This document shows, piece by piece, positions 22,801-27,172 of a DNA stretch of 27,172 nt (the first letter of the stretch is position 1; the number at the start of each line of letters is the position of its first letter). Where the stretch lies: assembly GCF_026151205.1 (NCBI RefSeq), contig NW_026971861.1, positions 1 through 27,172 of the forward strand, in the 5' to 3' direction. The notes beneath the pieces were generated by a model that worked only from the letters and a program-made list of their open reading frames with translations, was not told where the DNA came from and did not search any database. The stretch comes from Bolinopsis microptera. Lineage: Eukaryota > Ctenophora > Tentaculata > Lobata > Bolinopsidae. Position numbers and translations under genes: made by a program.

Positions 22801-25800
22801 ACATTCCAGCTTGAGTCGGAATGTATCGAGGTCCGAGGAGCTACACATAATACTTTGTAGTCCTTGTAGGAATCTTGTAATTAGGATACAGGTTGACCCT
22901 TGTGTATGATTGGAATTGGATAAAGATATAAACATACTATATAATATACTATTATTATATATTATATCTTTATATATTCATTTATATTTACACGGACCTC
23001 TCTAGAGCAAATAGCCTTGAGCTGGAGCACATGGGGGTGCTTGAGTCGCTTCATTACATTAGCTTCCTCCAGAAACTTATCAGCGTCCATGGTGCCTTCT
23101 TTCATAGTCTTTACAGCCACTCTTACTGCGTTGTTCCATGTTCCCGCCCACACCTGAGAGTCGTTAATTAATTATTTAACTTATTAATCAATTATCTAAT
23201 TAATAAATTAATCGATGAATGAATTTGATTAAAAAATAGGAAAATTGAATTGATGTGCCTAAAGCACTAATAAATTAGACCTGTTATTAGTAATAAAAAC
23301 TTAGAACACATTACTTGCGACGACTAATACTAGGCTCTCATGTCATCAAGGCGCAAAATGAAACCTTAGTAGGATAAAGGTGTCAAATAGTTAAGTTTAC
23401 TATCACATGAAATTCACATTTAGTGAACTGCTGAGACCGTTTATGTTGGCCATGCATGTGTAACAAGTCTTCCCGCTTACAAATACAAACAGATGGAACA
23501 CTTCAGAGTTCAGAGTAGCCAGAGTAACACAACACCTCGCATTTCCTGGTAGAAGTAGAGCTCCCAAACTCACGGTAACACAAACATTAACACTCTCACA
23601 TTTCTCAAGTAGAGCTCCCTAATCGTCTACCTCCTCTAAGCAGCCCTACTAAAAGTAGAGCTGAACAATAATACTTACACGCTATAATTACCTACTCCTG
23701 TCTTACTGTATTAAATGTATAATATTTATTAACCTCTCCGAAGCACCCCTGTCCCAGCCTCTCGTGGAGCTGGATAGTGCTCCTGTTAACTTCCCACACA
23801 TCGTGTGCTAACCCGTCCGTCTCTGGGGTCTCTTGGTGTTTGGGACACACGTACGTCAGCTTTATTGACAACCCTGAAGGTGGAGATGGTTTTAGGTTCT
23901 TGGATACGTATCGGATACGTATCGGATACGTATCAAATACTTTTCAAACCTTAAATATGTATCTGATAGATGGTAATTTTAGAGCGGGGAGTTTATTGTC
24001 TAAACTTGGATATTCTTTATTGTGGAACGCTCATCAATTTAGAGATTATGTTAACGTGAATTCAGGGTATTGAATATGCTCATTTTCAGTTTATCATTGA
24101 GAATATCGAGTTGTATAATTAAAGGTAGTATTGAATGTGAATGTCGCTGCTTTCAAGAAGACTGATATCTGACACCGAATTTCGCAATAGGCGAGAAATT
24201 CTTTCAGGAGTAAGTCTACTTCAGCAGTAAACTGATGTGAAAAGCTGTTTCAGGTTTCAAATTTGGGAATGTTAAACGGGACAGTGCAGAAGTACACATT
24301 GAAGTACACATGGAATATATAATATAAGGTGCGATAATTAACTTAACATAAATATCTTGCCCGGAAATGTCCGTCACTAGCAGAAAAAATGTTTGAGATG
24401 AGTATTCAAAGAGAGAGAGAGATCCAGGAAGCTTGCTTACCATCAGAATTTATTATGGCCAAACAAAAACTATGCAGATTCCGGGCCCCACATTATATTG
24501 CCGTGCTAGAGAATAATAAATAGTATTCGCACTTAGCTATCACTGTATTATAAAATAACTCTAAAGAAGAGAGCTGAGGAGAGGAGTGACGTCACGCGGA
24601 GACTCCGGATCATGAATAAGCAGAATAAGCACCTGCTACTTATATAATATCACACTGAGAGTGTGTGTGGGTAGAGTAGGGGGGGGGGGGGGGGGCTCTC
24701 TTCAGTACATGCAGCTCGCTAATTACTTTGTTATTGAGTCTTTTAGGGTTGATTACGTTTGAGGAGTGGGCCGAGCAATAGAGTATCCTACACAGATGTT
24801 GGGAAATATGATACACTAAGAAGTGATATAATCAAACAGGATAACACTATGTTATTAAACAGCTTTTTAGTGCGTGATTACATTCCCCACATTGTCTAAA
24901 AATAGATGGAAATTGTAAGGAGCAATGTTAGGGGATCATTGAGCAAGTAGAGGAGAGCACCCTTTCTCACTCATGAGATAGAGCCACAACATGAGCCGGC
25001 AACTCCTTTCAAGTGAAATGTAGGACTGTAGGAATATGTAGGAATATTATTGATTATGTAAGGACGTTTGGTAATCTTACACGATACACCTAGCTTACTA
25101 ATGCATCCCACATCTAACGTATCACATGAAGGGTGGTGTTGTAATCTGGTTACACAAATGTAAGTTATTATATGTTAAGTGTTACCGCGTGTGTTTCAGA
25201 ATAAGGAGCAGTCTAAAATGTTAATAAAAAGATGAAATTATTATCATAGCTGTTGGGGGCGTAGTTCTCACACATTCTTACATTGTACACTCAGGACATT
25301 AAGTTTGCATACCTACCGTGAACCAGCTAAAATCATCTTGTAAGAATACGTGTCTTGCAGAGATTTTCTTTATGCTTGCAAATAAGTTGTCTAGCGTGTA
25401 GCGGAGGTACACGTTTTAATGATTTCATGTGAAAATGTAACTTCTAAAATTTTGAATTTTAAAACTTCCAAACTAAATGCCGGCGTTGATCTGTTAAATT
25501 CCATGCAGGAACAATGAACATGCAGGAAGAATGAACGTTACCCTTGTTTTGTCGGTAGTAAGCAATAAGTTCGTGAACGTTAGGGAACTCAATCTTGTTA
25601 CTGATGAACACCTCGCCTGTCTCTGACTTTGTTCTTATACAGAAGTGTTTTATCACGGCTGACCCAGCATCGTTGTTTTCTCCCCGAACAGACAGGGACA
25701 AGGTTCCAGGCCTAGTTTCACTCTCACGCACCAGGAACGAGCCCGGCTGGGTTTGCTTGAGATAGGCTTCACTGTCGCTTCGTTTAATTAGACCGAAATA

Positions 25801-27172: not shown

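Follow-up and report, generated by a model that had tools for sequence, protein, structure and literature searches.

The window, by which we mean the whole stretch of 27,172 nt that we analysed, carries on its minus strand a gene encoding an SH3–SH2–tyrosine kinase protein in 11 exon pieces, running from the window edge at 27172 to a stop codon at 13726. GT starts all ten of its donors and AG ends all ten acceptors. The first piece (27143–27172) is the 3' end of a 5' exon that the window edge truncates; it encodes PPPPPQSSL in a frame shared with the downstream exons and is followed by GTAAGA. Two SH3 exons come next: SH3 exon 1 (26819–26892), in frame between AG and GT and recognized as SH3 by Pfam on the assembled protein, and SH3 exon 2 (26329–26456), whose donor, GTGAGT, would be the common partner of either of two SH2 exons. 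These are exon A (25831–26090; 260 nt) and exon B (25542–25804; 263 nt), and the 26-nt spacer between them (25805–25830) holds the donor of exon A (GTGAGT) and the acceptor of exon B (ttattttcag). Shared exon K1 (23734–23873) then encodes the closing strand of the SH2 domain, the linker and the glycine loop of the kinase, and the assembled frame continues through kinase exons K2 (22998–23153), K3 (21836–21991), K4 (21340–21503) and K5 (14190–14308) to the last exon, K6 (13726–13886), which encodes the tail EGQYDET and the stop. Introns other than the A/B spacer measure 238–7031 nt. The six junctions that an earlier note on this DNA had proposed around the SH2 exons (26329, 26090, 25831, 25804, 25542 and 23873) are exact to the base, and both exons are indeed entered in phase 2 and left in phase 1.

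Several repeats lie in and around the gene. The end of K4 is tandemly duplicated, together with its donor, just downstream (21199–21284 and 21280–21362; 95% identical), providing a second copy of that donor. Within the 7-kb K4–K5 intron is an inverted repeat of 669 nt with arms 94% complementary and 2 kb apart (16635–17303 and 19371–20039), which may be a foldback mobile element. A long TG/CA microsatellite (12132–12433) lies downstream of the kinase gene stop; the window also holds a minisatellite of ∼104-nt units (2947–3471) and a direct repeat of 1550 nt at 100% identity (416–1965 and 6943–8492) that reflects either a duplication of very recent date or a join made in assembly. An open frame of 220 residues (5566–6228), with a C-terminal stretch that looks hydrophobic by eye, has no Pfam family above cut-off; in all, eight of the other ORFs of the window were given to Pfam, and none yielded a family. 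We considered a ctenophore source in view of the deep placement of the kinase in the tree described below. A 21-base part of the Hormiphora spliced leader, as given in the available text of PMC8527503, has no match in the window at up to three mismatches, a result of little weight given how sparse such leaders are.

The order of domains in the assembled B isoform is that of the Src family (Pfam: SH3 17–64, SH2 78–160, kinase 198–447), and the top PDB sequence matches of SH3 exon 2 (26330–26456) are the Hck and Fyn SH3 domains. A C-terminal tail tyrosine is present in EGQYDET before the stop, and the same tail recurs unchanged in five relatives, P0001–P0004 and P0007. The first four of these begin with MGC and are, among the 120 of 7057 matches that were listed, the close relatives of full length; the first exon of the window gene itself lies outside the window. 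The specific kinase names among those 120 are Src42A, SRK, Fyn, Fgr and Yes, the remaining names being generic or absent, and the best named near-full-length relative among them is 52% identical. A 34-row tree, built from 33 hand-picked listed proteins and the window B isoform and confined to Src-type rows with no rival family, contains a deep clade of six with support of 100; across the aligned columns of this set, P0001 and the window B isoform are 96% identical. Three queries of viral contigs yielded no confirmed relative, and bacterial and archaeal genomes gave a single 38-residue match of 42% identity, in a MAG.

For both exons the Pfam SH2 match spans the entire profile (A, E 6e-23; B, E 1.2e-19), and their closest solved relatives by sequence in the PDB are the c-Src SH2 for A and the Lck SH2 for B. 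Both keep the pocket arginine of the FLVRES motif and the core fold. The earlier note had credited each exon with a whole SH2 domain, which holds for the full profile and for FLVRES, but the closing strand, LSIKL, is encoded outside both exons in K1, so that the swapped exon ends in the last SH2 loop. Structure models of A and B show the elements in SH2 order and superpose poorly on solved SH2 domains, so that we use them for element order only. Among 7690 sampled frames of 86 codons, coding ones included, 83 are open, and chance is therefore no sensible explanation for the open SH2 exons. No third SH2 copy was found when A and B were compared by BLASTP (E up to 1) with the 877 stop-to-stop frames of at least 20 aa in the window.

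With A alone the chain stays open for 461 residues and with B alone for 462, in agreement with the earlier proposal that either exon fits between the SH3 and kinase exons. Direct joining of A to B throws the frame out and reaches a stop within six residues (NNRAGISV, then stop), skipping of both exons leads to a stop after 105 residues of the window-held part, and retention of the gap ends the exon A frame at NNRGE. Because both, neither or a retained gap all stop early, exactly one SH2 exon gives a kinase. A transcript carrying both exons in frame, the outcome that the earlier note had set against its own reading, cannot arise from the direct join or from the retained gap. Compared with the marks of an exon pair in the available text of PMC3912159 (adjacency, similarity, length and phase), A and B are adjacent, 48/87 identical (55%; the earlier note had ∼56%), similar in length (260 and 263 nt) and matched in phase (2 to 1), and neither joint inclusion nor double skipping would leave a functional protein.

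The stop at NNRGE, only two codons past the last full codon of exon A, would allow another product, in which the exon A donor goes unused and a truncated SH3–SH2 adaptor acts as a kinase-free competitor. The A-type relative P0129 also ends in NRGE; in P0130 and P0127, however, the frame apparently continues for another 15 and 6 residues, which means that the stop is not conserved, and exon A has a consensus donor, GTGAGT, in a phase that fits K1. We regard such an adaptor as very improbable.

The spacer is the strongest local evidence for a mutually exclusive choice, and it was absent from the earlier note. Its 26 nt amount to little beyond the exon A donor and the exon B acceptor. Of the consensus branch-site candidates for exon B, those at −47 and −51 fall within exon A and the one at −8 is too close to the acceptor; the candidate at −19, which is non-consensus, overlaps the region of the exon A donor. 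For human mutually exclusive exons, the available text of PMC5740500 takes fewer than 50 nt between first donor and second branch point as the steric mark and finds it in 57 of 629 clusters; here the whole spacer is 26 nt, the branch site being a candidate. The spacer would then be too short to serve the exon A donor and the exon B acceptor and branch site together, the SH3 donor would pair with A or with B, and a transcript joining the two would meet a stop at once. Intron length alone is no absolute bar, since splicing of human introns 43, 49 and 56 nt long has been reported (available text of PMC4463651) and some ciliates have introns of ∼25 nt (available text of PMC5014332); the frame is. 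The ciliate introns are what would favour splicing of the spacer as a tiny intron, with A and B both included in a different product, but that join is out of frame with an immediate stop and the other introns of this gene are all at least 238 nt, so we give this possibility almost no weight. Joint splicing of A and B is predicted to be blocked by space and by frame, which is the textbook design of mutually exclusive exons.

Could the two exons have been set side by side by an assembly error that brought together parts of two paralogous genes? The perfect 1550-nt direct repeat elsewhere in the window, possibly an assembly duplication, lends some colour to this. The spacer, though, is a coherent donor plus acceptor, and in P0121, from another assembly, the exon B frame runs back across an implied 23-nt gap into the tail of exon A, its exon B being identical to that of the window. 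Because P0121, the one protein from which we read exon adjacency in other assemblies, has both the adjacency and the tiny spacer, these are not peculiar to the window assembly, and we consider an error of this kind hardly credible. The exclusive choice of one SH2 exon, as first suggested in the earlier note, draws support from frame logic, from the 26-nt spacing and from the presence of both SH2 types in other assemblies.

That presence comes from a search of other genomes for the exon pair, which had been proposed as a check. Exon B retrieves eight matches, namely six B-type at 71–100% identity, a partial B-type (P0128; 66%) and P0127, which is nearer A. Exon A retrieves six: P0129 (83%) and P0130 (69%), both A-type, along with P0127 (53%) and three B-type ones. 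Identity to the nearest relatives is thus 83% for the A type and 92–100% for the B type. We built a 36-row SH2 tree that leaves out the P0007 tail, the partial P0128 and P0121 (identical to B) and that includes 22 outgroup rows hand-picked from the 120 listed of 7057 matches. Ten B-type rows group in it at 99/97 and three A-type rows (window, P0129 and P0130) at 96/92, and all 14 rows on the A/B side are separated at 100/99 from the 22 remaining Src-type SH2s. The long-branched P0127 is found on the A side of the branch leading to B; rooting on the other Src SH2s places it, weakly (91/61), outside the A-plus-B group.

Codon positions 1, 2 and 3 are identical between exons A and B at 53, 62 and 29 of 86 codons. 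The 34% agreement at third positions compares with 26% expected from composition; dN is 0.44, and dS is not computable. The S2–A intron has no match longer than 9 nt to the spacer or to the first 400 nt after B. Since third positions agree at a level near composition, second positions match at 62/86 and the flanks are unlike, the duplication appears old, with both copies kept under constraint. Judged from sequence, the A/B exon pair is old, both SH2 types grouping with counterparts in other assemblies.

The differences between A and B are unevenly spread. Up to LSLS, in what we take to be the phosphotyrosine-pocket half of the domain, 28 of 38 positions are identical, versus 20 of 49 in the other half, which presumably reads the residues after the phosphotyrosine. 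Among controls, the closest orthologues (window A and P0129) have 29/34 and 40/49 and no tilt towards the C-terminal half, whereas the window A–P0130 pair has 30/38 and 30/49 and the window B–P0004 pair 31/38 and 34/50. The tilt is therefore partly general, because more diverged orthologues (P0130, P0127 and P0004) show it too. Ten positions consistently separate all three A-type rows from all ten B-type rows; the beta-D strand and what follows it account for seven, of which five hold when P0127 is added. In the beta-D strand region itself, exon A reads HYNIRRR and exon B HFCIRTK.

The two exons differ also in their splice sites. GT donors and AG acceptors are present at both, as the earlier note had said, but its word "canonical" is generous for the exon A acceptor, which reads AAG and, with 1 T in 20, ranks last in T content among the ten acceptors of the gene. 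The exon B acceptor is better, and B is likely the default form, in line with its occurrence in all four full-length relatives; exon A, whose donor is the consensus, is probably a regulated form that needs an activator given its poor acceptor. Base pairing between the S2–A and B–K1 introns finds no sign of itself in the longest perfect complement, which is 9 nt and is reached by 179 of 200 shuffles.

These asymmetries bear on whether exon A is used at all, or is a dying or unused copy, a decoy or pseudo-exon beside the B that alone enters functional kinase mRNA. P0001–P0004 are apparently derived from spliced RNA, because they are encoded on contigs of 1.9–2.8 kb, and all four have a B-type SH2; no A-type SH2 transcript is found among the matches listed, in a database clustered at 90% identity. 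The poor acceptor and the greater distance of the nearest A-type relative (83%, against 92–100% for B) point the same way. Exon A is nevertheless open over its full length, keeps FLVRES and the conserved His, and beats B in Pfam SH2 score, and A-type frames are open elsewhere at 83% and 69% identity. We judge it unlikely that exon A is unused. The missing A transcript weighs little, since the two isoforms, if from a single species, would be ∼90% identical and could share one 90% cluster.

The partial protein P0007 couples an almost unchanged kinase to a different SH2 end: it matches P0004 at 291 of 298 positions after the SH2–kinase junction and at 9 of 24 before it. This fits the reading in which one SH2 or the other is chosen. 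We considered P0007 as proof of exon A use and rejected it, its SH2 end being no more like A than B (6–7 of 23 positions match A-type rows, 8–10 of 23 B-type rows); that end could belong to a strongly diverged A, to a third type or to a paralogous gene. Both the non-A-like end of P0007 and the rooted place of P0127 slightly lower our confidence in mutually exclusive exons. With these set against the frame and spacing, we think it likely that A and B are a tandem-duplicated, mutually exclusive pair swapping nearly the whole SH2 of one Src-family kinase. The outcome would be two kinases that share catalytic domain and tail and differ in phosphopeptide docking, possibly also in autoinhibition by the tail clamp.

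Sterically enforced mutually exclusive exon pairs are exemplified by the alpha-tropomyosin type. Like these, the window gene has its first donor too near the putative second branch site, and joint inclusion would also break the frame; unlike other steric pairs, it has a gap of only 26 nt, in which every consensus branch site at a workable distance falls within exon A, and what it swaps is an SH2. In FGFR2, the alternative exons IIIb and IIIc change the ligand choice of a tyrosine kinase by swapping part of an extracellular Ig domain, whereas the window gene would exchange an intracellular phosphotyrosine reader. The Grb2 splice variant Grb3-3 resembles our case in that splicing alters an SH2, but through a damaging deletion rather than exchange for a second intact SH2. 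The available text of PMC9741552 describes FYN exons 7A and 7B (FynB/FynT) as mutually exclusive, tandem-duplicated exons that swap the linker and the kinase N-lobe with the ATP site. The window gene is likewise a Src-family gene with a homologous exon pair of which one or the other would be chosen, but here the SH2 is swapped, and our gene model has one shared set of linker and kinase exons. Mutually exclusive exons have also been predicted in an early-branching animal, in Mhc2 of the ctenophore Mnemiopsis (available text of PMC3912159), a muscle myosin with a domain unrelated to SH2. The event is of a known kind (cf. FYN 7A/7B) in a new form, the swap of a whole SH2. A literature search over titles and abstract beginnings, with subscription papers and bioRxiv mostly outside its coverage, found no SH2-swapping kinase gene.

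The phosphotyrosine sites at which a Src kinase docks are chosen by its SH2 domain, and the Src SH2 also binds the kinase's own tail, clamping the enzyme off. More tentatively, and at slightly less than even confidence, we propose that in this deep-branching, old animal lineage space-locked splicing of one Src kinase gene swaps the specificity surface of the SH2 and keeps the phosphotyrosine pocket, SH3, kinase and tail. If so, a single locus would reset docking and the strength of the tail clamp from one cell type to another, and SH2 swapping would do what gene duplication did for the vertebrate Src-family paralogues. With the catalytic domain, SH3 and tail held constant, an SH2-swapping gene would be a natural experiment on whether the choice of SH2 is enough to determine targets and autoinhibition, and it would show that splicing, next to gene duplication, can diversify the Src family.
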